Below, piece by piece: positions 9,920-62,431 of a DNA stretch of 64,000 nucleotides. The translations under genes and the position numbers were made by a program. The DNA lies in the NCBI GenBank assembly GCA_950295325.1, contig OX485809.1:5644001-5708000 (forward strand), read 5' to 3'. The notes beneath the pieces were generated by a model that saw only the letters and a program-made list of their open reading frames with translations, did not search any database and was not told the origin of the DNA. Every line of letters starts with the position of its first letter. The first letter of the stretch is position 1. The DNA comes from Polytrichum commune. Lineage: Eukaryota > Streptophyta > Polytrichopsida > Polytrichales > Polytrichaceae.

Positions 9920-12900
9920 ATGTTGGGCATTGGTGAAAGTGGATGTGGGCTTTATCAATGCCTCCCTGCCTTTGCAATGGGAGTAGCAATGTTAGCATTT
10001 GTGGAAATGATCATACTTGCATATATGGCCACACGCATGCTCAAGAAAAAACACGAGCTGGAGGAAATGGACAATTTGAATGACTCTAAAGATGTCACGG
10101 AGGAGCTCGAGGGATCAATAAGGTTCAACCTTCAGGTCGCTTACCTCTACATGAAATTTGTAAAACAAAACAAACTAAGATTTGGAGCTCATGTGCTAAG
10201 TGAACCTCAATGCTCACTTCTAATCATATGTTGGCCATTGGATTAAGAGTATTTGTATAGGTATATATGACATTTCAATCCAATATTGCTTTAAAATGTG
10301 AAATGGTTATCATTTAACAAAAACTTCATGCATTATTTTTCTTGCATGAAGTATTTGTAGCTTTGAGGAGAACATTTCTATGTGTGCCATTCATGGAGAA
10401 TATACATCGATACAAAATTGAATCTAAAGAATGTAAATGTTTTGGAAATAGAACACACCATGTTTTTATCAACTTCTTCCCATCGATACCTATTTAGAGT
10501 CTTGACTCACAAAACCCTAAAGGATTATTCATTTGCCTTTGTTATATAGGGAGACATGTGGGTAGCACCGCTTAAACAAGGAGATCACTCAAAAGCAACA
10601 CTGAAAAAATGCAAGGACAAACCTCCTGTTGAAGACGGGGTCCTCACGGGGATTGAGGAAGAAAAAATTGAGATTAGCAAACCCATATTGAAACATGCGA
10701 AGTTAATGGGACAATTGTTGTATTTGTACGGATTGGATGGAAGTGAGGATAAGATCCTCGTGAAAGGTTGTGAGGTCGTGGCCATATCCGGCAATGAGAA
10801 AGCTTCAAAAAAATGGTGAATATTTGACAATTTACATGATTACATCTATGATACAAAAGCATGGAATCAACATAAGACTTTGTCTTGCTCGAAGAGAGAA
10901 GCATAAAAATCCATATATATTTAATTATTTGTATATAATTAGAACATGTTCTTTCGTTTGGGTGTTTTGGTTAGGGCTCGCAAACACCCTATCAAAGTGC
11001 GCCATAGCCAACGCCAACTTTTAGGTGAATGCACAGAGTGCATTTTGTTCATTGAAACGAGTTTGCAGAAAGAGACTTGGTGTGAAGTTCTCCGAGTGGC
11101 CTCAAAATCAAGCCGTGAAGCCCAAGAGTGGTACATAAAGCACAAGCTCAAGTTCGAAGAGTATTGTTCCTCACTTGAGGCAACTACACACCTTATTACC
11201 CAATTTCATTCAGGAGCCAATGACATAGGAGTTTACGTGGAACGTTCCAACTCATCGGGCTCAAATGGTGTGCCTGTTAAAGGGTTTTGGAGTGCGGTCG
11301 AAAAACTAAAGCTACCAAAAGGAGGAGGCATTGGGAGTAATTATATGATGAATCGGAGGAAAGCGTGTGATCTCTTGAGCATGCCGCATAGTATTAATAC
11401 ACAGACTACTCCTCCCTCACAACATGGGAAGCTAGGAGGTGGGGCAGATATGGATGCTACGTCAAGCAACCATCATGGGGCGAGCAACGAGGCGGATATT
11501 AATCAAGGCAACGTGTTTTTTAATATGTTCATTTCGAGGTTGTTTTTTGATTGGTCCCAAAGCTTGTCCCTTCAAGCCAAGTATCATGAACAACTCCAGG
11601 CAAGAAAAAACATTATATGTATCTATATCATTTGGAACAGGTGTTGAAGAGGGGATCCCATTTCTCTCTTCTTGCCGTTTTTGTGAATTGTAGCCCGTTG
11701 CAAGTATACAAACACATCATGGTCTCCCTATTTCTCGTTTTTTCTTCTTCTTTTATAATTATTTTTATCTTCTCATTGTTCAAAACAATCAAACCAAACA
11801 TGTTGGTCTTAATATTTATGATCGCCTACAAGAATATGAACACAAGATGACTTGCATGACATGATGACCAAATGACCTTTGCACATTATATAGAGAAAGA
11901 CGACCATCTTGCAACAATGATATAAGTAATGCTAATAGGAAACCTCTCAATTTCTCCTTCCACATGTAATTTGAATCTTGGGAAGTTCTTCCCATCGCCA
12001 AGTAGATTGTGTAGGGTTTGCATGGTAAATACCCCAAGAAATATATTTCGTTCCACAACATCTACTTTAGGGACTCTAGTGAAAACTTGCCCCTCCCAAG
12101 TTTGTTGTTGGTTCATTGCAACTAGATGCCACTAGAGTAAACCATGACTTGTGACCTCAAATTAGGGACCAATTTGACTAAAATAAGAAACAACCAAAAT
12201 AACAAAGTTTCTTTGTTTTGCCTCCCTTGGGCAGATGTCACAAGCCCCCTCCCCCCCCCAAAAAAAACCTAAGGATAGAGAGAAATAAGGCCCCCATATG
12301 CAACACTTTATAGCCCTACCATCCCATGAGGCTAAAATGGTGTACATATTGATGACTTATGAAGTCTCTTACATCCTCATTTTGTGTGCACTTTTGTGCA
12401 GCAAATGCTCTCAAAGACGAAGATCCCGGGTTTTATCGAGCAAATTGTGTTGACTAGTTTAAATTTTGGGAAGTTCCCCCCATTGCTAAGTAGCTTGAGG
12501 GTGCTACCACCAAATCCCGAAGGCATCACAAGCCTTGGCATTGACATTGAATATGTTGGTGGTGCCTACATGGTTTGTGAGACGCGTGTTGTGAATGTGA
12601 GGTTGGAAACGCATCCCAAAATTTCTGGTGATCCTGTTGGCGAAGATGTAGCCATTATCGCCGGCTCCCTTTACGACCCCAACCATGAGGGTAAAAGATT
12701 ATGACATCATTTTTTTAAAGAAGAAAAGGAGGTTTAACATAATGATAGTTTAGACCATGACACCATTCAATGGTCATACATCACTCAACACTAGGGTGTT
12801 GCATCCCCTGGATCCATAGAGCCCACATTCCAAGAGGAAGGCCATACGTATTATCTTGTGTCATGGTCAAACATGATCATGACAAGGAGAATGGGTTCAT

Positions 12901-38088: not shown

Positions 38089-38999
38089 GATCGTGTTGGT
38101 GGAAGAAGAAGAAGAAGAATTCCAATAATCAACATAAAAAAGTCACCAGATGATGGACGATGATCTCGTTATTTGTAAGTATCGTGCTGGTGGAAGAAGA
38201 AGAAGAAGAATTCCAATAAGTAACATAAAAAGGTCACCGGATGATGGATGATGATCTCGTTATTTGTAAGTATCGTGCTGGTGAAAAAAGAAGAAGAAGA
38301 ATTCCACTAAGTAACATAAAAAAGTCACCGGATGATGGATGATGATCTCGTTATTTGTAAGTATCGTGCTGGTGGAAGAAGAAGAATTCCAATAAATAAC
38401 ATAAAAAGGTCACCGGATGATGGATGATGATCTCGTTATTTGTAAGTATCGTGCTGGTGGAAGAAGAAGAAGAATTCCAATAAGTAACATAAAAAGGTCA
38501 CCGGATGATGCACGATGATCTCGTTATTTGTAAGTATCGTGCTGGTGGAAGAAGAAGAAGAAGAATTCCAATGAGTAACATAAAAAGGTCACCGGATGAT
38601 GCACGATGATCTCGTTATTTGTAAGTATCGTGCTGGTGGAAGAAGAAGAAGAAGAATTCCAATGAGTAACATAAAAAGGTCACCGGATGATGCACGATGA
38701 TCTCGTTATTTGTAAGTATCATGCTGGTGGAAGAAGAAGAAGAATTCCAATAAGTAACATTAAAAAGGTCACCGGATGATGGACGATGATCTCGTTATTT
38801 GTAAGTATCGTGCTGGTGGAAGAAGAAGAAGAAGAATAATTCCAATAAGTAACATAAAAAGGTCACTGGATGATGCACGATGATCCCGTTATTTGTAAGT
38901 ATCGTGCTGGTGGAAGAAGAAGAAGAAGAAGAATTCCAATAAGTAACATAAAAAGGTCACCGGATGATGGACGATGATCTCGTTATTTGTAAGTAAGTA
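38089..38999. repeat. Minisatellite, ten copies of a ~90-bp unit
   Basis: The unit contains GTATCGTGCTGGTGGAAGAAG, a variable (GAA)2-6 run, TTCCAATAAGTAACATAAAA, GGTCACCGGATGATGGACGA and TGATCTCGTTATTTGTAA. Ten copies of the GTTATTTGTAAGTA landmark are present, with few substitutions. Most length variation lies in the GAA run. The array starts just after a MITE (38028), and its last GTAAGTAAGTA served as the 8-bp target of the next MITE (39000). Confidence 0.92.
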
Positions 39000-41629: not shown

Positions 41630-43045
41630 AAATAGTAGACAATTTCCAGTATATAATAAATAAAAGTTCGTTAATAATAAAATAATATACTATAAATAGT
41701 AAATAAGAATAGCACACCATTAATAGAACTAATATAATAATATAACAAAATAATAAATATCAGACCATAAATAATAAATAATATACTATATACAATAGCT
41801 AAGAATAACATACTGGAGGTAATAAATAATATATTATATAAAGTATATAATAATAAAATACTATAAATAATAAACAGAAGACCATTAATAGTACTAATAT
41901 ACTATGAATATTGAAAATTAAATATCAAACTATAAATAGTAAACAATATACTATATACAATAGCTAAGAATAACATACTGGAGGTAATAAATAATATATT
42001 ATATAAAGTATATAATAATAAAATACTATAAATAATAAACAGAAGACCATTAATAGTACTAATATACTATGAATATTGAAAATTAAATATCAAACTATAA
42101 ATAGTAAACAATATACTATATACAGTAGATAATAATAACATACTGAAAATAATAAATAATAAACATCATACCATTAATAGTAAATATTATACTATATACA
42201 ATAGATAATAATAACATACTGAAAATAATAAATAATAAAGATAAAGATAATAAATAATAAATATCAGACCATTAATAGTACTACTATACTATAAATAGTA
42301 AATAGTAAATATTATACTATATACAATAGATAATAATAATATACTGAAAATAATAAATAATAAAGATAAAGATAATAAATAATAAATATCAGACCATTAA
42401 TAGTAATACTATACTATAAATAGTAAATAGTAAATATTATACTATATACAATAGATAATAATAACATACTGAAAATAATAAATAATAAAGATAAAGATAA
42501 TAAATAATAAATATCAGACCATTAATAGTAATACTATACTATAAATAGTAAATAGTAAATATCATACCATAAATAGTAAATATTATACTATATACAATAG
42601 ATAATAATAACATACTAAAAATAATAAATAATAAATATAAAGATAATAAATAATAAATATCAGACCATTAATAGTAATACTATACTATAAATAGTAAATA
42701 GTAACTATCATACCATAAATAGTAAATATTATACTATATACAATAGATAATAGATAATAATAACATAATGAAAATAATCATATATAATCATATATAATAC
42801 TATAAATAATAAACTATAAACTATAAACAATGAATATTAGGCAGTACATAATAAATATGATAATAGAAACATTAAATACGAGGCAGTAAATAGCAAATAC
42901 GAGATATTTAATAATAAATAATAGGCAGTATACAACAAATACTGGATAATAAATTATAAGCAGTAAATAATAGACAATAAATAATATATGCCGTATATAG
43001 TTGATATTATATTATATACATTAAATAAAAAATAAATAGTAACTT
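41630..43045. repeat. AT-rich tandem repeats inside the CACTA-like element
   Basis: Nearly pure A/T with sparse G/C. A unit of about 165 bp (landmarks GCTAAGAATAACATACTGGA, AACAGAAGACCATTAATAGT) is repeated about twice from 41785 to 42110. A shorter unit of about 126 bp (landmarks TAATAACATACTGAAAATAA, AAAGATAAAGATAATAAATA, ATATCAGACCATTAATAGTA) follows in about four copies to 42740. Below this there is a TAATAAATA/CTATAAATAGTA sub-rhythm. The array degenerates by about 43040. Confidence 0.88.
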
Positions 43046-43929: not shown

Positions 43930-44430
43930 AGGACCACTTCACACACGAGCCAAGAGCCGTGACCATGAAATTGTGAGAGCCCAAAGAAAGTGTCCAACGG
44001 CCATCCCAAGACACCTCCAAACTCATGTAGTGTGGTCACGGACCCTCAAGTGTAGTGTGGAGCCATATGTGGCCGGGCCCTCAACCAAATGCTATTTCAG
44101 TGACTTTCTATTCATGCGGGTCCTCACACATGATCAAATAGAAGAAATCAACAGTTGTGAGTCTTCGGAGTGCCACAGTCTCTTGGTTTTGTGTTAGGCC
44201 TACCTTCAGGAGGTGGTTTTTGAAAATAGTCCAAATGACCATGAAACACAATCCATTTGATGCCATGTAGGAATCCATGTAGACTTTGTCTCCATCTTGC
44301 ATTCACATACTCCGTTGGTCCCTCAAGTTGTAGTGTGAAGCAAACTTGGAGCGACCCCGCCTTTTCCACCAATGAGAGTGCTTGAAGTGTAATGGTCAAG
44401 GGCTCACAGTCTCGTGTGTGAAGTGGCCCT
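43930..44430. mobile_element. AGGGCCACTTCACAC (Tourist-like) MITE, full copy
   Basis: Same structure and orientation as the 37527 copy: AGGACCACTTCACACACGAG at the left, CTCGTGTGTGAAGTGGCCCT at the right, with the internal CTCAAGTGTAGTGTGGAGCC and CCTACCTTCAGGAGGTGG landmarks. The right side is followed by TGA, which is also the left flank of the foldback at 44434. Open frames inside (for example 44148-44585 minus) are incidental. Confidence 0.7.
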
Positions 44431-44433
44431 GAT

Positions 44434-44661
44434 ACCAGGGCCACACCGAAAACCCCAGCAGCTCCAGTAGCCAAAAACACCAGTCCTACGTATTCTCCAA
44501 AAATACAGGGTTGGGATTTCAGTTGGCTGGAGCTACTGGAGTGGCTGGAAGAAGGGGGTAGCCTGCAACCAACAACTCCAACCAACTAAAATCCCAACCC
44601 TGTATTTCCAGAGAATACGTAGGGTTGGTGTTTTTGGCTGGGCCGCCCGGTGTGGCTCTAG
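44434..44661. mobile_element. Foldback MITE with CCAGGGCCACACCG ends
   Basis: Arms of about 95 bp: ACCAGGGCCACACCGAAAAC, CCAGTCCTACGTATTCTCC and ACAGGGTTGGGATTTCAGTTGG on the left are mirrored by CCAACTAAAATCCCAACCCTGT, GAGAATACGTAGGGTTGGTG and CGGTGTGGCTCTAGT. Flanks are TGA on both sides. It appears to have inserted exactly next to the preceding MITE, sharing its TGA. Confidence 0.7.
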
Positions 44662-45509
44662 TATGAAAAAGAGGTGGAGGAGGCCTTTGGAGGCCTCCAC
44701 TTGTACTTGAATTTTGGGATTAAAGTGACCTTCATGGAGGCCTTCCAACCGAGGCGTCTTTTTGTGGTGCTTTATTTGGGCGTACTAATTATCAATCTTC
44801 CCAATAACACCCATGAGTGCGTGTTCCTATTCGGAGTTACGCAATGCTATAACTACATAACGAGAATGGGAGGTGTCACCAAGCAAAGTCATTATTAAAT
44901 AATTATAAACATTATTAAATGCGCAATAATAGGTGCATCTACCCTATGTTCTATAACGTCCATTGAACTCCTATTTGAACTCTTGAGGAAGACATTATTG
45001 CACTGTGTAAATCCGCATAGTAACACGCACTAATTGGGATGATCGGTGTCGTCCCAGACCAAGGGTTTGAATTTGTTGCGCTTTCTTTGTACAAGTAACT
45101 TATAGACTTGCCTTTTAGGTTGGTGTTGGTGATGCGGCAGGCTATATATTGAACCCAATAAGTTAGTGTCAATTTAAGCCAATACAACTCATTCTCTAAT
45201 TCCAGCATCGTTTTCTAATGCTATGGTGGCTCCTGCACTTGAACCTATGCAACTGCAGCTACAGTGCCCACCACTTTAGGACGCAAATACAGTATCCAGG
45301 AAAGTAAATGTAGGCAAGTAGCCAAAACATCTCTTAAAGTTCTTCCAGAAGGTTCTTATAAGTACAGTATCACTGTGTGCATAAGTATCATGTGTGCCTT
45401 ATGTGGTCAATGGTCTTATGTGGCAACCTCGTTCAGAGGTTTAGTTACACTAGGGGGTTAGGAGACCAAAAGAAGGTTTAGTAACCAAGGAAATATTGGT
45501 TAACGACAC

Positions 45510-45896
45510 TGATTATTCTAATTAGCAAGGGAGGGCCAGTAGTGTGTGTGGGAAACTAGCGAAGGTGGAACTGTATTTTTTCTTTACACTATGAAATTAG
45601 TGCCACCAAAAGATCCAAGGGTTCGTTGTTCATCCCGATATTGTTCATTGCAAGTATCATCACTTGGCCCGATTCACTAAGAAACATGTGTTTGCATGTA
45701 ATTTTGTTTATCACTCTACAAACACCTTTGAGCACGCACTAATTTGTTGTCTGAAAAATCTATGGTAAATGAGCATGTGTTCATGAATTTAGTAGCACTC
45801 ATTAAAAATTATTCCAGCCCTCGGTAACTTTGAGATTTGGCTAAATAGTGTGCGTGCTTTGAGAATTAGTACTACCCATACTAATTGGAATGATCA
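45510..45896. mobile_element. MITE with TGATNAnnCCAATTAGT-type ends, copy 2
   Basis: Left end TGATTATTCTAATTAGCAAGG, right end ACTAATTGGAATGATCA (inverse TGATCATTCCAATTAGT). The body matches 20592-21003 (GTGTGGGAAACTAGCGAAGG, GAAATTAGTGCCACCAAAAG, TATGGTAAATGAGCATG). A third partial end (CGCACTAATTGGGATGATCG) sits at about 45029-45048. Confidence 0.62.
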
Positions 45897-46218
45897 ATGT
45901 TGTGCCGAACAATGTTCACCTCCAGCTAGACTCCTACAATTGTGTCAACCATCACAAACAGAAACCAACTTTGTTATGTTTTGAGCATCCATTGAAGTAG
46001 ACTTTGAGCTTGGATAACGATTATTGGCGGATGATCAGCCAAGGCATTGACTAAAAATGGTTGACATGGTCGACATGGCTTTCTTCGAATTCCAAATGTT
46101 TACATTAACGCTTGGAGCTTGCGTTTTGTTGTCAAACTAAAAGTCCAAGTTCAAATTGTTTCAATCACACCAAAGTGTATGTCTATCAATCAAACAAACA
46201 AAGAGTGATTGTTTGACA

Positions 46219-46587
46219 TGAGGCACCACGGGCCTTGGCTTGGTGGTTAGGGCTCATGGCCCCCAATGAGGAGGTTGTGGGTTGTATTCCCCATGCTGAC
46301 GTGGTGCTCACCACCTTAGTCCACCCAACTATGGTGGGGGGTCCTTGGACCTTGTTGTATGGGTACCTCAAAGCCCTTTGGGGGGATACCATGTCCGGTA
46401 TCTTCAAGGCACCAGTGGCTAGCTAGGAACTAGTATAGTGTGTCACTATAGTGTCCATCCTCGAAAGGGGAGAGTAGTATTGTCCCAATGTCCCTTTGTC
46501 CAGTGGGCATCGGGTCATTGGCATTACGAACGGACACTTTATTCACGCTGGCCCCTTAAAAGGGACCGGAGTTTCTATCTACCTATC
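46219..46587 (+). mobile_element. tRNA-derived SINE, copy 2
   Basis: 369 bp, + orientation, with A box TGGCTTGGTGG and B box GTGGGTTGTATTCC (one change from the other copies), the same body, and a CTATCTACCTATC tail. Perfect 13-bp duplication TGATTGTTTGACA at 46206-46218 and 46588-46600. Confidence 0.9.
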
Positions 46588-46736
46588 TGATTGTTTGACA
46601 GAATTTTGTGGGTGTTGTCAATCCAAACATCAAAATTGGGTGGAATTCTTTTGGATTATAACACCAGTTTTCTAAATTCTCACACCATTAATATAAAGTG
46701 CACGTTGTCATCAATCACATCAAACCATGAGATTGA

Positions 46737-47237
46737 GGGCCACTTCACACACGAGGCTGAGAGCCCGTGACCAATACACTTCAAGCACTCCCGTTGGTGG
46801 AAAAGGCGGAGCCGGTCCAAGTTCGCTTCACACTATACTTGAGGGACCAACGGAGTATGCGAATGCAAGATGGATGTAAAAGTCTACATGGATTCCTACA
46901 TGGCATCAAATGGATCATGTTTCATGGTCATTTGGATTATTTTTCTAAAACCACCTCTTGGAGGTAGGTCTAACACAAAACCGGGAGATCATGGCACTCC
47001 AAACGCTCACAACCGTTGGTTTATCATATTTTATCATGTGTGAGGACATGCATGAATAGAAATTCATTGAAATAGCATTTGGTTGAGGGCCCGGTCACAT
47101 ATGACTTCACACTACACTTGAGGATCCGTGACCACGCTACAAGATGTTGAAGGCGTTTTGGCACGACCTTTGGACACTTTCTTTTGGGCTCTCACGATTT
47201 CATGGTCATGGTTCTTGGCTCAAATGTGAAGTAGCCT
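46737..47237. mobile_element. AGGGCCACTTCACAC (Tourist-like) MITE, inverted copy
   Basis: Full-length copy in the opposite orientation to 37527: GGGCCACTTCACACACGAGG then CTGAGAGCCCGTGACC at the left, and CATGGTTCTTGGCTCAAATG TGAAGTAGCC at the right. Flanked by TGA on both sides (46734-46736 and 47238-47240). Confidence 0.72.
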
Positions 47238-47240
47238 TGA

Positions 47241-48511
47241 GTGAATGTCTTTTCAAAACAAATAGAGGATTATTATTTCAATCCTTTGTTTCTACATATT
47301 CTATTTGCAGGATCTAAGAGGTATAATTAGGGTCAGTGACAACTTGGCCAACATCTCACATTTAATAGCAACATTCGGTGGATGTCAAACCTCCCCCTAC
47401 AAACTTTTAGGGGAAGGGGTCCAAATTGGGATAAGGATTGGGGCCCCCAACCTGCAACCCCTTGGGTAGCCCCCAACGAAAATTTTAATTTTTTTTTGGA
47501 ACCTGACCAAAAAACGATGCCCATCCTGACGAACTTTTTAAAAAAGAAAAAAGAAGAAAAAGAAATTTTCCTTGCATTCTCGAAGGCCACTTGTCCAAAA
47601 AACCCATATTGAGTACACCTCACCTCAAGGTCCAAAATCTATCATATATGTTCATTACCACTCACTAAATAACCAATTAAAAGAAACCATCCCATTTCCG
47701 AAGGGAAACCATCAATAAAGCATGTAATTAGCTTGGAAGTTAAGAATATCAACGAGTCCTCGTAAGGACCGAGGCTATATTTTTGTGATTTAGCCTTCGT
47801 AAATTTTAAATTGAACTTAACATGATGTGTTGATTTTAACTAATTAATTTTATAATATTATGATTAATATCTTCTCCTTTCACAAGTATTCATACACATT
47901 TAAACTAATTAGGCCCAATTAAAACTAACTAACTGTAATTGAGTGTAATAAAGCGCAAGGTCTAAGCATAATTTAGTGCTTCCCACGGTATCTAGATAAA
48001 TGTGGAAAGTATGAGAATTATATCAAACTAATTTATCCTTATTAAATAAAAAAGTATGCTTATTAATCAAACTAATAAGGCATAATTAAGGCATAGTTAA
48101 GGCATTAATTAACCACCAGCCGCTCCCCCCCCCCAAAGCCCGTTTTTCAATTTTTTTTTTTTTTTTTTTTTTGCATCTCTGATGCCTTTCTCGGGGCCTC
48201 TTCAACTCCATGACATGGCCCTTCAATTTTTTGTACTTACGTATCTTTATTTTTGTGGGCTTACAAATTTTTATCTTAACCATTTGAATGTATTAACAAA
48301 TTTGTGTTCTCCCATTTGCAAGATGATGTCCATAGTTTTTCAACTCGAGCATTTCCAAGAGGGTTGGAGAATGTGAATGACAATGCTTCACACATGCGCA
48401 AGAATCAAAACGAAAACTTTAACTAATTGATTGGGAATTTGCGCATGAAATTCGTTACCAAGTCATGCTTGAGTATCTTTTATTGGTCGCCTAAAACCAT
48501 TGCCTTTGGTT
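47241..48511. other. Spacer, no gene recognised
   Basis: AT-rich noncoding DNA with a T-homopolymer of about 22 at 48150-48172 and a C-run before it. Short overlapping frames on both strands at 47333-47635 show no domain. Confidence 0.35.
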
Positions 48512-51500
48512 AGACACGTACTAGAGGTGGATGTTCAATTACTGGAGAACAAGCTTGTTAACGGATACCATGAAGGTGACATGATCCTCTATGCTTCCAT
48601 TGTAGATGACAAAGGGAGAGTGGAACCAGTCACAAAAAACACTTATGATTCATGGAATGAGCACTGACAAATATGTCATGATTTATTTGCGATGTATATG
48701 AGAATTGATGACAAGTTTGGTGTTTTCAGTGGGAACATGTTTTGGGTGTGAGAAGGCAATCATAGGGTGAGTGCTTGGAGGTGTCATATTAACTGTTCTC
48801 ATCGCGAAGGCCCAAACTAGCGCAACATGGTTGATTGCATATTTTGGGATCCAATCAATTATGTGGGTATATTGCTTGGTGTCGTCCATGATATCAATAA
48901 ATAAATATTCTAATCCACCTTCTTATATTATTTTGTTGTTGTTTGTTTATATTAGTATTTATAATTGTTATTTTGAACTTCTTCTTGGTGTAGGTCCACG
49001 GAAAATGACCACGTCAAGACAAATTTGTCACAAAAGCTTCAATTGATTAAAAAAAATGGCACTCTATAATTTATATATTTTTGGGATTGCCTTATCGTTG
49101 CACATTTTGATGTTTGTGTCAACAAACGATATAAGGATGTGTGGTACCATTTACTTTAGATGTGTTTACCACAATCCTTGTACAAGGTGAGTGTACTTTA
49201 TACCATGTTACTCTAATAGGGTTGGAGGTTTGTCCAAAATTTTATATATATTCATTTCTATCCCCTTTGATCTCAATACAAACATCAATGGTAGAGGGAA
49301 ATAACAACTGCAACATAAGAGGCGTTGATGAAATACAATGATAAAACACCTTTGGCTTTGAGAATTGTGGAAAGTATGTAGTCTGCAATGGACAAAGCAT
49401 ACAAAATATACCGTCAAAGACATTAGAAATAATGACTTTGAGAAATTGTTTGTTGTTACAAATTTTGCTCATGGTGAAGATTTTTTGAAAGAGGTATTGA
49501 TCCTCACCATATACTTATATTTGCCAACACCGTGGAGAATTTATGACGAATGTAATGATGACATGTGTATGTTATACAAATCAATTTAGATAGTTTGGAT
49601 TCACTACAATACCATGTATGATGGTTGCAAAATTGCAAATGATTGCCACCACTCAAGTTGACAACAAATTCAAAGTTTGTTTGGTTGCGTTGGTAGAATT
49701 CTAGTCTCATGTCATGATAGTTGGAGCATGGTTGAATATAATATGGGTCCAATATCATCGAATGAGGATTTCCTCTCTACGTCGGATTATGTTCAGAAGT
49801 GTTAAATTCTTCATCGGACTAAAGGTTGCCAAACCGTGTTTAAGGATAAAACATCATTTAGTAAGTCACCCAAACTCGATGACTACGTTGGTAGAAAGAT
49901 TGCAATCAGGTGTATTATATACATGAGGCACCACGGGCCTTGGCTTGGTGGTTAGGGCTCATGGCCCCCAATGAGGAGGTTGTGGGTTCTATTCCCCATG
50001 CCAGCGTGGTGCTCACCACCTTAGTCCACCCAACTATGGTGGGGGGTCCTTGGACCTTGTTGTATGGGTACCTCAAAGCCCTTTGGGGGGATACCATGTC
50101 CGGTATCTTCAAGGCACTAGTGGCTAGCTAGGAACTTGTATAATGTCCATCCTCAAAAGGGGAGAGTAGTATTTGTCCCAATATCCCCTTGTCCAGTGGG
50201 CATCGGGTCATTGGCATTACGAACGGACACTTTATTCACGCCGGCCCCTTGCTTGAAAGGGGTTGGAGTTTCTATCTATATGTTATATACATGTGTTTAT
50301 CCTTGTAATATTTTGACTATCATTTTGGTTCAATGAGTGTTGTTGACATCAACAATTTGAATGCAATTTAATATACTTGTATTGATTTCTTGAAGTACAT
50401 CAAGAGTGAGCTCCTTGCAATTAATTTGATAAACAATGAACAATCTCCCTTTGTACTTTCCGGCTTGGGCCTTAGAAGGTAAATTATGCATATTCACTCC
50501 AGCACACTTTGATGATGCTAGAGTTCTTGAAAAATGTGACTTATGTACATTTACTAAACTTCTTTGCCATTTTTTAATAGTATACACTTGATGATGTATA
50601 TATGATATTGTGGTTGGTGATTACTTGTAGATGTCTTCGGGTGGTTATAAATTTCATCTTATGGTTGCAAACTTGCTAGAAAGGCTACATATTTCCAATA
50701 TTTCCTCACCTTCTAACACCATTCCGGAGTGGAATGCACACTTGATTTCCCACATTGAGGCCATGTTTGAATTCACTAATGCTTACCTTCATGAGGATGC
50801 TTACATGCTTGTATTCCTTCCCAAAGTAAAAGGAACTAAGCATGATGTAAAACTTATGCAAAACTTGTGATTTTGTTATTGCAAAGGTTTGGTAGGGTAT
50901 CAACAAGTTGTCATTATGTTTTTGAGTTGACAAGACTCTTACGGTACGTGATAAATATTTCCTTGTACATTGTTCCTTATTGATTATGTATTGTGTGTTT
51001 AATTCAAAATTATTTTGATACATTATAACTAGATTTATGTTTTTGTAGACTTTGCTTTTCATTGACAAGGTGAGATCATCGACTTGTTATGTGTTTCATA
51101 AGTGTGAGGGTGTGCCAAATGCGGATGCGGAAGCCATTGACATATTCTTTAATCTAATAAATCCTCAGACTCAACTCATGAACAAAGGGGTCCCATGGGA
51201 AAATGGTCATGAGAAAAACTTGAAATCTCTACAAGTTTTTATCGAGGTGGTAACTAAACTTGAAAATATGGTATGCCTATGCATCCACGCGTGCTTATAG
51301 ACCTCAATGCCTATCTTTCAAATTCAATTGCTCATTATCTATGTTTTTGTATTTGATGATTGATTTCTATATTGTTTGTAGGCATTTCTATTCATGCATG
51401 TGAGAGAAGCAGTCGCCACATTGTGGCCTTGGAGGGCGATCCGGCCATATTTGATGTCATTTTTGTCTTCATTGTGTAAAGGGACTCCACTTTTAACATG

Positions 51501-51857
51501 TGGAAGTGTACCTCACATTACATCTATTTCAAACAAAGACGAACTTATTTGGAAGGTTGCAAAGTGTTCTTGCTTTAGTAAGTATTTGCTTATCACTTGA
51601 TATGTGAATTTTGTTGTATTGCATATGGGTACAATTTAAAGTATTTTTAATTTTTAATTTGTGTGAACATAATCACAAGCCAATTCCAATCACCTCTTAG
51701 CTTGATGGTGCTTCTCCCATGTATAGAGAATATGGCATAGGTTATGGCAGCTACCTCCATAGCGGTCGCTCATCGAAAATCGTGACGGTTGGTTTGGTTG
51801 GCATTTGTAGATGATGAGGCAAAAGAGGGTATTGAAGAAGATAGTGAGAATGAATAG
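48512..51857 (+). pseudogene. Decayed ParB-like / DNA methyltransferase-like gene, interrupted by a SINE
   Basis: Coding fragments appear in order. 48512-48667 reads VLEVDVQLLENKLVNGYHEGD to a stop. 48731-48900 carries a GNMFWV-stop-EGNHRVSAW block, the G-N-H-R signature of ParB/Srx-type folds, then VDCIFWDP. About 49005-49050 reads TENDHVKTNL. 50631-50867 holds YLHEDAYMLVFLPK. 51052-51260 holds GVPWENGHEKNLKSL. 51387-51479 reads SIHAC...RHIVALEGDPAIF, shaped like the C-terminal S-x-x-x-A-C...G-R-x-x-x-x-x-E segment of N4/N6-type DNA methyltransferases. An acidic DDEAKEGIEEDSENE tail ends at 51857. ParB-like plus methylase fusions are known from bacteria and phages. Here stops, frame changes and a SINE (49924-50282) show a dead copy. 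The catalytic (D/N/S)PP(Y/W) and SAM-binding loop were not found. GT/AG-like joins between fragments suggest that the parent had introns. Confidence 0.45.
49924..50282 (+). mobile_element. tRNA-derived SINE, copy 3 (inside the methyltransferase-like pseudogene)
   Basis: 359 bp, + orientation, A box at 49941-49951, B box at about 49981-49994, tail CTATCTATATG. Duplication TTATATACA at 49915-49923 and 50283-50291, extendable by TG. A small internal gap around 50138 (loss of the AGTGTGTCACTATAG segment) separates it from the other two copies. Confidence 0.88.
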
Positions 51858-52390
51858 CATCATAATTCTTAGACAATATGACTGGATTTGTCTGGGTTGG
51901 ATTTCATGTTATGCCTTGCTTTGAATAAACTATAACAATCTAATGTGCATATGAGTTTGATTGGTGAATGGAGTAACCATATAAATTACCCATACCCGTG
52001 TACATGGTCCATCTTTTTCATGGCAAATAATCCAGAGTTATAGGAAACATGTAATCCTAATACCGTTTGAATTTTCCATCACCGCTCATCACATAGTATT
52101 CTCTACCTACATTATGAGCATGTTAACCCTAGCATGTTCTAGGGTCCCTTTGGTACATGGTGACATTTTGATTGATTAAAACGTCTTTTTTTACTATGAG
52201 TTTTTCCAATATATATGAACAACTAATTATGTTGGGTGCCTAAGATTGGTTTACACGAAGGACACCAATTTTTACTTACAATAAATATGGTGTTCTTAAG
52301 GTATGTTGCCCTATTGTGGGCACTTCCAACTCCACCAATGATTTCACATTTGGATTGAATCATAAATTGTTGCATTAGCAATTCCAAATC
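51858..52390. other. Spacer, no gene recognised
   Basis: AT-rich noncoding DNA between two coding remnants, with no repeat terminus recognised. Confidence 0.3.
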
Positions 52391-56380: not shown

Positions 56381-57558
56381 TCGCCTTCCCACTCCTTCTT
56401 TGATTCGCTCATCCCCAGTCTTCAGATCATGTCTACGCTTCTGCTCCACCGTCACCTCTCCGGTGAGTCGCCAAATCAAATCTCACCTCTTCTCGTGCCC
56501 TGTGCTCTTAGATCCACTCACACTTCTCTAACTTTGATCTCTCTGCACCCTCAATCCCGCATTGCTCGGAATGCGCTAGGTTTGGGAACTTGGATTTAGT
56601 GTCCGAATTCTCGAAGCATCGGAGTGGCTTAAGCGAGGAGAGAGGCGGAGAGAGAGCGAGAAAGAATCATGGCATTCAAGTGGATGGGTTATGTCGTGGA
56701 TTTAGTACTGGGGGTTAAGAGTGCCCGGATTTAGCCCATCTGCTCACCAGGCCTTTTTTTTGAGGGAGAGGACTGAGGATACAATATCCGTGTTGGAAGT
56801 GAATGTCGACTGAGTGAGTAGGGAGATTTTGTGTTGGTGGATTTCGGGGTTTAGTGGAGGGTTTTAGCGTTTTTACTGCCGCATTTTGTGTGGGGATTCT
56901 CAGGAGGATTCAATCTTACTGTCGACTGTGGGAGTGGGAGATTTGTGTTGGATTATGACTAGTTTTTATTGATTTCTGAGTGTGGTGTGGTGTTTCAATA
57001 CAATGGCAGGCGGAGGCGCGGGGTTTAGTGACGTCGACGACGCTTGCAGGAGCTGGACCTGCTAGCTAGTGCTAGTTTGAGCTTGGATTCCGAGCTCGTG
57101 ATCTAGTTGTGTCCCGATCCGGAGATTTCGGATCTCAACGATTGCGAAAGTATTGGATTTGAATTCCTTGAAGTTCATGTATGTCTGACGATTAGGGGAG
57201 GAGTGGATTCGAATTTCCACGTTCATATCTGTTTAAGGATCAGGATAGCTGTGGACTCGAAATTCAAGTTCATGTATACCTGAGGAGTGAGGAGGAGTGG
57301 ACATAATCTAAGTTCATGGATGTTTATGGATCATGGGAAGAATGGACTTGAAATCCAAGCTCATATATGCTTGAGGATCAGGGGAGGGGTGAACTTGACA
57401 TCCAACTTCATGTACTTCTGAGGATTAGGGGAGTAGTGGGCCTAGAATCCATAATTCATTTATGTGTGAGGGTTAGGATCGAGGTGGATTCGAATCCACA
57501 GTTCATGCATGTGTGAGGATCAGGGTTAGGGGAGAGGGGAGGAGAATCCGACGTTGCA
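56381..57558 (+). promoter_or_regulatory. CSLD 5' leader with probable UTR intron and a minisatellite
   Basis: GC rises sharply near 56280. A strong donor CCG|GTGAGTC at 56461-56468 after a CT-rich stretch suggests a 5'-UTR exon, with possible acceptors at CAATGGCAG (57009) or GCTTGCAG (about 57050). From about 57160 to 57545 lie eight degenerate copies of a 47-bp unit (landmarks AAGTTCATGTATG, CTGAGGATCAGGGGAGGAGTGGA). They carry many ATGs upstream of the true start. Whether they are in the mature leader or in an intron depends on the acceptor used. Confidence 0.5.
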
Positions 57559-60500
57559 ATGTCGTCACCGAGGTCCGCTGCAACAGGTGGGCTTGGGTTC
57601 CGGGGAGCGGGGAAGGGAAACAACAATGGCAACAACACAAACAACAAGCAGAACGGGAGCAGCACAAATGTAGCAGTGGGAGGTGGTCACCACCACCATG
57701 CAAGGCGAACCTCAAGTGGGAGGTTTATGAATTTGTCACGGGACGACAGCGACATGGGGGGCGTGACGGACAGTGAGATGGGGTCGGAGTTTCTGTACAC
57801 GGTGCAGATCCCCGCGACACCCGACCACCAGCTCATGTCCGCCACACCGTCGGTGCGGCCCATGGACAGCGCGATCGCGGGGAAAGCCGAGCAGCAGTTC
57901 GTGTCGAGCACGATTTTCACGGGCGGCTTCAAGAGCGTCACGCGCGGACATGTGATGGAGAAGATGATGGAAGGCGACGGTAACCATCCGCAGCTTGGGG
58001 GCGCGAGAGGACCAGTGTGCGCCGTGGACGGGTGCGACGGGAAAGCCATGCGCGACGAGCGTGGTGAGGACATGACCCCTTGCGACTGCCTGTTCAGGAT
58101 CTGTCGCGACTGCTACATCGACGCCTTGAATGGCTCCGGGAAGTGTCCTGGGTGCAAGGACGAGTACAAGATCCCTGACGAGATTCCGGGGTCGCAGAGT
58201 GGGCCTGATTCTGACCTCCGGGCGCTTCCTCCGCCGAGTGACGACAGCTCCAAAATGGACCGGAGATTGCAACTGAAGACGAAGCCCGGGTTGCTGATGA
58301 GCAACCAGGGCACGGATTTCGACCATGCCCGCTGGTTGTATCAAACCAAAGGGACATATGGGTATGGCAACGCGGTCTGGCCCAAAGACGATGGCTACAA
58401 TGATGGCAATGGCCCTGAGCTTCCCCCAATGGGCGCCCTGCCCAATTTCAATGACAAGGCTAGACGCCCTCTGTCGCGCAAAGTTACAATCTCCGCTGGT
58501 GTCCTCAGTCCCTACAGGTAATCTAAACCAGTTTGCTAATAATTTAAGGCCATGTGCCATGCCATGGGTTGGAATGATCCATTCGTTTTGGTTTTGCTAA
58601 TTCTTCTAATTGGGTGGTGGGGGGGGGGATGGGGAAAATTTTATGGGTTGGAAAGTGAGGAGTGATCTATACATTTGCTTCAGACTAATGGGAATGTGAG
58701 TAGGAGTGTTTTTGTTACCTTCTCTGGCGGCATCGGACGGATAAATCTCATTGGTTTTGAACTCCAGGACATTAGAATTTAGGGTTGTAGTGAGAAACTA
58801 TGCAGGTAATAGGTAGACATGTAATTGTCAATTGATACGGATTGCGAGGAAGGGTAGCATTAAAAGAATGAATCTTGAACTCTGGCATTTGCTGATACTC
58901 GCCGTTGGATGCCATATCCATCAGGTTCAAGAATGATCTATGCACTTGCTTCTCATGGAAATGTGGGTAGGGTTGGTAATAGTTTCATTCTCTGGTGGCA
59001 TAAGATGGATAGGTCTCATTGGTTTATTAACTCCGGGGAATTCACGAATTTAGGGTTTTCTGTGAGAAATTGAAAGGCATGTAATGTTCGCTGATGATGA
59101 CTATGAGTAAGGATAAAACTTTCCATACGAGGTTCTTCATCGGAAGAACGAGTTAGAAAATACGGTGAATGCAGAGGACGGTTTCTTTTTTACAATTTAG
59201 GTTTCGGGCCTGATCTCATGTCTTCAATATCAATGAAAGTGGCGCCTTCTGCTTGAATTCATTAGGATTTGAAACTCCCATAGGGTTAAGGGTTGAGGGT
59301 TTAAAATTACAATGTGGACAGGATGTTCTCATCTTCAAAAGATGAATCTCCACACTGCTGAATGTATGAAGTCGGGGCAATGCGGGTGATTTCAAAGCTT
59401 AATTAATTGGCGATGCGCTGAAGTTAGTTGTGGGATTGTTCTGCCAGGTTGCTGGTAGGAATTCGAATGGCGGTCCTGGGCCTGTTTCTGGCATGGCGTA
59501 TCCGACATCAAAATCAAGATGCCGTGTGGCTATGGGGAATGTCGGTCGTTTGCGAAATCTGGTTTGCGTTCTCCTGGATTCTCGATCAGCTGCCCAAGTT
59601 GTGCCCCATCAACCGTATGACAGATCTGACAGTGCTCAAGGAGAAGTTCGACATGCCTTCTGCTAACAACCCCAGCGGGCGATCTGACTTGCCGGGTGTG
59701 GATGTGTTCGTCTCCACAGCCGATCCCGAGAAGGAGCCCCCACTTACAACAGGCAACACCATTCTTTCAATTTTGGCATCCGAGTATCCTCTGGAGAAAC
59801 TCGCATGCTACCTCTCAGATGATGGAGGGGCACTTCTCTCTTTCGAAGCTTTGGCGGAGGCAGCCAGCTTTGCCCGCATTTGGGTTCCGTTCTGCAGGAA
59901 GCACAAGATCGAGCCACGTAACCCAGAGACATATTTTCTGTTGAAGGGAGATCCCACGAAGAACAAAGTCCGCTCCGACTTCGTGAAGGACCGCCGGCGT
60001 GTGAAGAGAGAGTACGATGAGTTCAAGGTGCGTATCAATGGATTGCCTGATGCTATTCGTCGCCGTTCAGACGCTTATAACGCTCACGAGGAGATTCGTG
60101 CCAAGCGCAGCCAGATTGAGACGGGAGGAGATCCGGCGGAGAATCTTAATGTGCCCAAAGCTACTTGGATGGCCGATGGAACACATTGGCCCGGTACCTG
60201 GATGAATTCCGGGAAGGAGCATGGGCGTGGAGACCACGCGGGTATCATTCAGGTACATAAGTTCACAAAATGCACTTCTATAACTTTTGATTTAATTGCT
60301 AGAATTATGTGTTTGTTTGCGTGATCTTGTGACCAAATACCTCGCTTCACCTCAATTGGGTTACATTAAGACAGTCACGAGACAGGAGCTATATAGCAAG
60401 AATATTCAAACTTGTTAAAGGAAACCCCACAATTACTCATGCCCCAATGGCTCCATCCCTGCAGTTGGCTAATGTGAAAGGTAATTGTTTTGGCAGGTGA

Positions 60501-62431
60501 TGCTTGCTCCTCCCACCGCCGAGCCGCTAATGGGAAGCAGCGACGAGGAAAACATTATCGACACCACAGACGTTGACATTCGATTGCCCATGTTGGTGTA
60601 CGTGTCTCGTGAGAAGCGACCAGGCTATGACCACAACAAGAAAGCAGGAGCCATGAACGCTCTCGTGCGAACCAGTGCTGTCATGTCAAATGGACCCTTC
60701 ATTCTCAATTTGGATTGTGATCATTACATTTTCAACTCCCTGGCGTTGCGAGAGGCAATGTGCTTCTTCATGGACAAGGGAGGTGATCGTCTCGCCTACG
60801 TTCAGTTCCCCCAGCGTTTCGAGGGCGTCGATCCCAACGATCGATATGCCAATCACAACACTGTCTTCTTCGATGTGAACATGAGGGCGCTGGATGGACT
60901 GCAGGGACCGGTGTACGTGGGTACTGGATGTGTTTTCAGAAGAATCGCCCTGTATGGGTTTGACCCACCTAGGGTTCGTGAGCACGGAGGGTGCTACAGC
61001 TTCTTCTGCTGCTGCTGCGCAGGCAAAAAAAATAAGAACAAGAACAACAAAAAGAGGGCCATGGAGGTGAAAGGTCTGACCGAGCACACCAGCGACGAAG
61101 ACGATGACATCGAAGCCAGCATGCTCCCGAAACGTTACGGTAGCTCAGTGACCTTCTCTTCCTCGATTGCCGTTGCGGAGTTTCAAGGGCGACCTCTTGC
61201 TGACAAGGGTGTCTTGAATGGCCGACCTTCCGGCGCGCTCACCATTCCTCGGGAGCCACTCGATGCCAGCACAGTGGCGGAGGCTATCAATGTGATTTCA
61301 TGTTTCTACGAGGACAAGACAGAGTGGGGTGGACGTGTGGGATGGATTTACGGGTCCGTGACAGAGGATGTGGTTACCGGTTTCAGAATGCACAATCGTG
61401 GTTGGCGCTCGGTGTATTGTGTGACAAAGCGAGATGCATTCAGAGGAACTGCTCCCATTAATCTTACAGATCGTTTGCATCAAGTAACTCATTCTAAATT
61501 CTGCTTTTCCATGGCGAAACCTGAAGTTTTCCACACATTGCAGATTTATGTGTGTTCATGCCTGATTTCTACCCATTTGTCCTAATTGTTGTAAAGTGTG
61601 TGATTCTCATCGCTTAAACCCTAACTTGTGCAGGTGCTTCGGTGGGCAACGGGTTCTGTCGAGATTTTCTTCTCCAGAAACAATGCCATATTTGCAACCT
61701 CTCGGATGAAATTCCTACAGCGTGTTGCATACCTTAATGTCGGTATTTACCCATTCACATCAATCTTCCTTCTAGTGTACTGCTTCCTGCCCGCTCTCTC
61801 GCTCTTCACCGGACAGTTCATCGTCCAAACCCTAGACCTTTCCTTCTTGATCTACCTGCTCATCATCACCGTCACCCTCTGCATGCTCGCCATCCTGGAA
61901 GTCAAGTGGTCCGGCATCACTCTGGAAGAGTGGTGGCGAAACGAGCAGTTCTGGGTGATCGGAGGAACCAGCGCCCACGTTGCTGCCGTTTTCCAAGGTC
62001 TGCTCAAGGTTATGGCCGGAGTGGACATCTCCTTCACTCTCACATCCAAAGCCGCCGGAGAGGATGAAGACGACATCTACGCCGACCTGTATGTCGTCAA
62101 GTGGACATCTCTCATGATTCCTCCCATCACTATCGGCCTCACCAACATGATCGCCATTGCAGTGGGCATTTCCCGAACGATCTACAGCACAATCCCCGAG
62201 TGGAGCAAGCTTCTGGGAGGAGTGTTCTTTAGTCTCTGGGTGTTGTTCCATCTATACCCATTCGCCAAGGGTTTGATGGGCAGGGGAGGCAAGACACCTA
62301 CCATTGTTTACGTCTGGGCTGGGCTTCTCTCAGTCATCATCTCCCTGCTCTGGGTTTATGTCAGCCCTTCTACAAACAACAATTCTAGTTCCAGCAGCGG
62401 CAGCAGCGGCGGCGGTTTCCAGTTCCCTTAG
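57559..62431 (+). CDS. CSLD: Cellulose synthase-like D glycosyltransferase, four exons
   Basis: Exons 57559-58517, 59448-60252, 60497-61483 and 61634-62431 give 1182 residues, the usual CSLD length. CSLD proteins are processive family-2 glycosyltransferases (beta-1,4-glucan or mannan type) of the plasma membrane and Golgi, needed for tip-growing cells and cell plates in studied plants. Seen in order: a Ser/Gly/Asn-rich start; a zinc RING-type domain at 154-200 (CAVDGC...[17 protein letters not shown]...KCPGCKD); two N-terminal membrane segments (about 321-340, 350-375); catalytic D444-D445 ([10 protein letters not shown]); plant-conserved region; D661-x-D663 (NLDCDH); class-specific region with CysCys run and an acidic/basic stretch; T877-E878-D879 (TEDVVTGF); Q917-V-L-R-W split by intron 3; about six C-terminal membrane segments; a Ser/Gly-rich tail ending FQFP. 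All joints are GT-AG and the frame is intact. The start at 57559 is the first in-frame ATG after the repeat leader and opens an MSSPRS N-terminus. Confidence 0.97.

Follow-up and report, generated by a model that had tools for sequence, protein, structure and literature searches.

The DNA analyzed here, the window, is a 64-kb stretch of the Polytrichum commune assembly (contig C7, positions 5644001 to 5708000; 407.8 Mb in 64 contigs). On its plus strand, at approximately 48482 to 52105, lies the relic of a multi-exon gene, preserved as ordered exon remnants that have better-preserved relatives elsewhere in the genome (Table 1). An earlier sequence-only reading had proposed such a relic, with a ParB-like block followed by a methyltransferase-like region, and the translated frames of the window bear out the place and the order that it gave for the fragments, which lie on the plus strand. 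The relic runs beyond the end assigned in that reading (51857), and DNA similarity to relatives continues to 52113.

Table 1. Features of the relic and, in the last four lines, of the rest of the window (feature, position in the window, strand, basis)
N-terminal conserved exon remnant	48482..48901	+	tblastn with L052 exon; alignment A2; EGNHRVSAW box read in this frame; three in-frame stops; ParB-like by GNHR box only
Following middle exon remnant	49022..49156	+	similar frames in L048 (1617-2030) and A3 (11420-11695), by eye
Middle part of element, frames broken	49563..49925	+	DNA 77% to L071 (two blocks); 76% to L069 over 49724-49925
Inserted dispersed repeat	~49921..50280	+	SINE-like by eye, tRNA-like stretch; sister copy at 46216-46557
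Short frame just 5' of motif IV exon	50475..50543	+	translation only
Methyltransferase motif IV exon remnant	50634..50946	+	MT4_B match in two pieces, E 7e-18; frame 50634-50867
Motif X/linker exon remnant	51049..51273	+	MT1_B match over 51124-51273, E 3e-11
Exon after SAM motif I (SIHACERSSRHIVALEGD)	51381..51476	+	MTend match, E 1e-4 (this query also matched 18 other stretches, E up to 0.5)
Probable right terminal repeat	~52078..52105	+	by eye against termini of L067, L068, and L069; L069 DNA similarity ends at 52113
91-bp tandem repeat	38090..38995		ten copies, 93% match
AT-rich long compound satellite	41653..43035		units of 7 to 165 bp
Foldback or MITE-like element, ~3.1 kb	44006..47161		inverted arms of 221, 65, 38, and 100 nt, 85-97%; similar DNA also in L067 and L070
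Cellulose synthase-like gene, presumably of CSLD type	~57517..62428		PF03552 in 3/3 frames scanned, best E 4.9e-146; consistent with a land plant

The window fragments alone retrieved no matches in Pfam, PHROGs, NCBIfam, PDB, or viral contigs, and their identification thus rests on relatives. The ParB-like fragment matched the open exon of one relative (L052) at 47.9% identity over 140 amino acids (tblastn; E 4e-39), and the methyltransferase fragments matched other copies in the genome at 44 to 45% identity (E 7e-18 and 3e-11). Judged by these comparisons, the fragments are not chance matches. The frames at 50634 to 50867, 51049 to 51273, and 51381 to 51476 form a methyltransferase-like series, with SIHACERSSRHIVALEGD in the final one. 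Within the motif IV remnant there is a frameshift near 50854, plus stops, and the family's catalytic site has decayed further here. A search for a left terminal repeat within the window returned no candidate better than those from shuffled sequence, no transposase remnant was found within the window, and Rfam gave no matches on it.

The dispersed repeat inserted in the relic aligns with its sister copy in blocks of 97%, 94%, and 96% identity (91% over 371 aligned positions). One of these copies lies within the relic and the other within the foldback element.

Taken together, the window copy is a dead, decayed right half of a transposon, and it is inactive because its frames are broken, an insertion has been taken up, and CpG has been lost. 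The three in-frame stops of its first exon fall at sites where most other rows of alignment A2 have tryptophan. The relic has an observed/expected CpG ratio of 0.45, lower than the ratios of two open exons of relatives (0.77 and 0.79) and of the cellulose synthase gene (0.81); such depletion is what methylated, decaying DNA would show. Between the window copy and L067, dN/dS is 0.81.

Copies, ends, and gene order of the element family

A genome search with a 77-amino-acid exon from the window (the first 77 amino acids of the motif IV exon remnant) gave 773 first-look candidates, among which 150 matches were scored for this one exon (the window copy and 149 others). These lie on contigs C1 to C7, C37, and C39, thus including all seven large contigs (∼42 to 78 Mb); with about 150 scored matches, the family is therefore large and dispersed. 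The two best matches after the window copy itself are 56 to 58% identical and have broken frames, and many further matches are 38 to 50% identical with open frames (17 with an open frame of 416 amino acids). We examined 27 stretches and a further eight returned by the 77-amino-acid search. Two lineages, A and B, are ∼46% identical in the motif IV exon, and near-identical copies are scattered over different contigs. The A copies have a common, fixed right end and a left extent that varies. For none of the copies of this genome that we examined could open frames be demonstrated in all genes: stops interrupt the GNHR exon of A3 and B2, both genes of A4 are broken, and in B1 the transposase is broken by stops. 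In B copies (L050, L051, L054, and L055), repeated blocks occur upstream of the methyltransferase part, and the GNHR exon was undetected in B1, B3, and L051.

Right ends take the form ...CTTTCCCC in A copies and ...CACTCCCC in B copies. Subterminal repeats of the CGCTCACCGCTC type occur at right ends, with similar repeats, in reverse complement, far upstream. The inverted ends of the three better copies (A3, A4, and B1) are imperfect and contain GAGCGG/GTGAGC repeats, and each of these copies is flanked by 10-bp target duplications. Those of A3 (TGTAGTGGAC) and B1 (GGGCAGAGCC) lie directly at the left terminal repeat and were found by script at 2 of 12 right ends, and that of A4 (GGGTCGCGAC) was found by eye; for the other 10 right ends, the script scan for flanking bases found no matching left end in the stretch examined. 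All three duplications are within the range for Mutator-like elements (MULEs), given as 8 to 11 bp in the available text of a Mutator review, which also describes several MULEs with extra open reading frames (PMC6446971). The three elements with both ends measure ∼15.7, 10.6, and 7.5 kb, the ends used for A4 being off by a few bases. Outside the recognized exons, these three copies contain tandem repeats of 170 bp (4.3 units), 63 bp (13.4 units), and 359 bp (4.4 units), the last in B1.

A transposase-like gene lies on the opposite (minus) strand in A3, A4, B1, B2, L051, and L052. Only its SWIM end was seen in L066, which is among the closest relatives of the window copy. The gene or its end was thus present in 7 of the 24 stretches tested, many of them not long enough to include it. 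In B3, pieces of the transposase are arranged differently, and A1 has no transposase in 10.8 kb upstream. The protein ends in a C-x-C...C-x-H finger, and Pfam SWIM matches four of six members, the best (E 0.0088) falling under the cutoff. Its core, a conserved opposite-strand protein aligned from four copies, has no Pfam transposase match. Because of these two results, membership in the Mutator group rests on target duplication length, ends, and finger. On the plus strand, the GNHR exon is followed, after a gap of 2.4 to 4.5 kb, by the motif IV exon and then by the motif X and motif I exons. Transposase, GNHR exon, and motif IV exon share an identical order and orientation in A3, A4, B2, and L052. 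The sequence-only reading had considered that intact relatives might be carried by mobile DNA; the dispersed family, inverted ends, target duplications, and transposase-like gene support such carriage. In appearance, the carrier is a DNA transposon of plants and not a phage.

Two further open frames were seen next to A copies. A 507-amino-acid frame just 3' of the A1 right end (L045, 7173 to 8693) has no Pfam match and presumably resembles a transposase-like plant family. A 694-amino-acid frame 5' of the A2 copy (L046, 159 to 2240) is retroelement-like by eye and has no Pfam match at E values up to 0.01.

The methyltransferase-like and GNHR parts of the second gene

The profile for the METHYLTRANSFERASE part of the gene was alignment A1, in which exon pieces were joined for 11 members. 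Against PDB, the top 3 of its 12 hits were DpnA (two sequences, E 3e-4) and CcrM (E 0.043); the remaining nine were ribosomal protein S2 (E 0.23 or worse). PF01555 was matched by 7 of the 11 joined-exon members at E values up to 10, the best reaching 9.2e-7 (29.5 bits versus a cutoff of 26.7). A family HMM retrieved the phage methyltransferases L108 (E 1.1e-9) and LW81 (E 4.7e-7), compared with 0.56 for the best of 1,000 shuffles; these two are a nonindependent sample, since both had been found earlier with a family member. A search with the joined L049 methyltransferase gave 98 phage records at E values up to 10 (best E 2e-4); among the 15 matches listed, 12 carried a DNA methyltransferase or methylase annotation and 3 had none. 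By sequence, the L049 matches indicate distant homology and are not proof of a phage source. The N6/N4 methyltransferase homology proposed for the C-terminal region is thus borne out by the matches of relatives to PF01555, DpnA/CcrM, and phage methyltransferases.

The Pben1 methyltransferase and its relatives were tried as a yardstick and rejected, as they belong by our reading to another class and hhalign failed with them mixed in. The family HMM did not detect any of eight phage methyltransferases of the Pben1 type.

In the LW81 alignment, DPPYN of the phage enzyme stands over DLPEN of the family, which fixes the catalytic position. The (D/N/S)PP(Y/W) motif that the sequence-only reading had put forward for checking is absent from all 22 copies that cover the site, six of which are near-identical A copies, also when phenylalanine is allowed at the last position. 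Half of these copies (11/22) have D-[LIV]-P-E, and the others have DFPE, NLPE, NLPG, DLPK, NLPM or similar, or decayed forms. The FxGxG-type motif fared better in part: read by eye, the SAM-binding region is kept, in a form looser than FxGxG. It consists of D..ASTG or D..AGVG, then SIHAC...H.VA.E.D, and it follows the motif IV exon. The family thus has the permuted motif order IV-X-I, with motif X kept.

For the ParB assignment of the N-terminal part, the support comes from the GNHR box, with no profile signal. GNHR, corresponding to the GxxR phosphate motif (Box II of ParB/Srx), is present in 9 of 11 copies, with GNHM in L049 and DNHR in A3. In alignment A2 (nine copies, four of them read through stops), G-N-H is invariant and the GKMFFVWEGNHR block is conserved; by its sequence, this block resembles the ParB/Srx GxxR box. 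No ParB profile match was found in Pfam (nine members), in PDB, or against 11 phage ParB proteins; within the last comparison, the hhalign runs have little weight, because the same method missed the methyltransferase with a mixed, unsuitable phage set. The GNHR exon of L052 had no phage match at E values up to 10 (tblastn). Because no profile comparison supports ParB, we call the N-terminal domain ParB-like by motif only.

Selection was estimated from a few pairs with copies common to several of them, using only pairs with pS below 0.6 and skipping stop codons. In lineage A, dN/dS was 0.13 to 0.66 for the GNHR exon and 0.16 to 0.37 for the motif IV to I exon (five pairs each, not every A copy being in both sets). 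B copies gave 0.79 to 1.29 (six pairs), and the L053/L044 pair gave 1.11. On these values, the gene looks constrained in lineage A, and the B copies look dead.

Interpretation and comparison with known systems

We consider it probable, though by no means certain, that the window holds a decayed Mutator-like element and that the product of its second gene has the methyltransferase fold with an altered catalytic site, serving perhaps as an epigenetic helper resembling VANC of Arabidopsis. The GNHR-box and methyltransferase domains would form one protein, which would bind the element's own repeats and may influence how the element is methylated or silenced. By analogy, the protein would most likely be a SAM-fold DNA-binding factor or an enzyme of altered chemistry that aids expression and jumping of the element in the manner of VANC and VANDAL. 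We favor such a role over ordinary DNA methylation because the catalytic motif reads DLPE instead of DPPY, without the first proline and the aromatic residue, although the SAM region is retained. The helper role of the methyltransferase-like gene is what we infer from this analogy. A bolder version, possible but doubtful in our estimation, is that a plant transposon lineage acquired a bacterial-type DNA methyltransferase fold, altered its catalytic site, and joined it to a nucleotide-switch-like GNHR domain, yielding a sequence-specific epigenetic factor that would act on the element's own tandem and terminal repeats. If true, this would be a second, independent kind of transposon-encoded anti-silencing or self-marking system.

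The second gene might also be a passenger, captured once by the transposon in the manner of Pack-MULEs and without function for the element. Uptake of genes by MULEs is known (available parts of PMC6446971 and PMC6431247), and the B copies evolve near neutrality; however, the gene keeps a constant orientation to the transposase across the diverged lineages A, B, and L052, and dN/dS among the A copies (0.13 to 0.66) fits poorly with a gene of no use, so that we regard capture without function as unlikely. More improbable still is an enzyme that continues to methylate DNA at N4-cytosine or N6-adenine, with the element marking its own copies. The retained SAM motif region, motif X, and PF01555 match would all suit this activity, as would the bacterial-type N4 methyltransferase that works in Marchantia sperm (accessible text of PMC8566409 and PMC8885841), but (D/N/S)PP(Y/W/F) occurs in 0 of 22 copies and the LW81 alignment sets DPPYN at DLPEN. 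The active DNA-modifying enzyme envisaged in the sequence-only reading, with its catalytic motif missing throughout, is therefore unlikely.

That the copies constitute a host gene family, whose members merely lie near transposons, seems to us very improbable. The copies are very numerous and multi-exonic, and the opposite-strand transposase was not seen in the arrangement described above in 17 of 24 stretches, many of them too short; yet three copies sit between target duplications along with a transposase gene, and near-identical copies are scattered over different contigs. A phage or viral origin of the locus was rejected, as the window fragments matched phages only at E values of at least 2 (tblastn). 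Two phage matches that were inspected lay beside lysis genes or in unannotated proteins, and viral contigs, scanned both with window fragments and with family alignments, yielded no confirmed relative. Overall, the relic, the methyltransferase homology, and the mobile carriage of the sequence-only reading stand, its ParB domain finds no profile support, and its active enzyme is unlikely. The dispersed family also explains the recurrence of bacterial-looking methyltransferase fragments in this genome, for which recent transfer or contamination is not needed.

The second gene resembles the beta-class PF01555 enzymes (DpnA and CcrM) in motif order IV-X-I, SAM region, and profile match; it differs from them in that the catalytic (D/N/S)PP(Y/W/F) is replaced and in being an intron-containing gene of a plant transposon. 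Fusions of ParB to N6/N4 methyltransferases are described as frequent in phages in the available part of a survey (PMC12704722), and 36 ParB-methyltransferase fusion enzymes are reported from Paracoccus prophages in the accessible text of another paper (PMC6536676). As in the fusions that these texts describe, an N terminus with a GxxR-like box here precedes an N6/N4 methyltransferase, whereas the N-terminal domain here is without detectable ParB homology and no phage genes were seen around it. According to the same survey text, the ParB/Srx fold occurs in eukaryotes most often as sulfiredoxin (PMC12704722). Marchantia DN4MT1 is likewise a bacterial-type amino-methyltransferase (4mC) in a land plant (available text of PMC8566409) but, in a comparison by description only, is presented in the accessible part of PMC8885841 as having no extra terminal domains. 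Among open-license PMC papers, we found no plant transposon with a methyltransferase-fold gene. New here is what carries the gene: a family of Mutator-like elements, in which the methyltransferase-fold gene is the second.

To our knowledge, few transposons encode their own epigenetic helpers, and VANDAL/VANC of Arabidopsis is the standard plant case. The SET domain, an extra MULE gene product, is a histone methyltransferase domain. In the available text of the Mutator review, the extra open reading frames of MULEs are SET, OTU, PMD, or unknown, in contrast to the DNA-methyltransferase-fold protein found here, and the review's main text does not contain the word methyltransferase (PMC6446971). 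Like the MULEs and VANDAL elements described in that text, the family has a similar target duplication length, terminal repeats, a SWIM-type finger, and an extra gene beside the transposase (PMC6446971). VANC binds noncoding regions of specific VANDAL copies and causes loss of silent marks, and its target regions form tandem repeats, according to the accessible part of PMC10398659; tandem repeats are likewise present in A3, A4, and B1. With its many scattered copies and a second gene of methyltransferase fold, the family would offer a case to compare with VANDAL/VANC, one that would make the recruitment of bacterial DNA-modification folds for control of transposon silencing testable.
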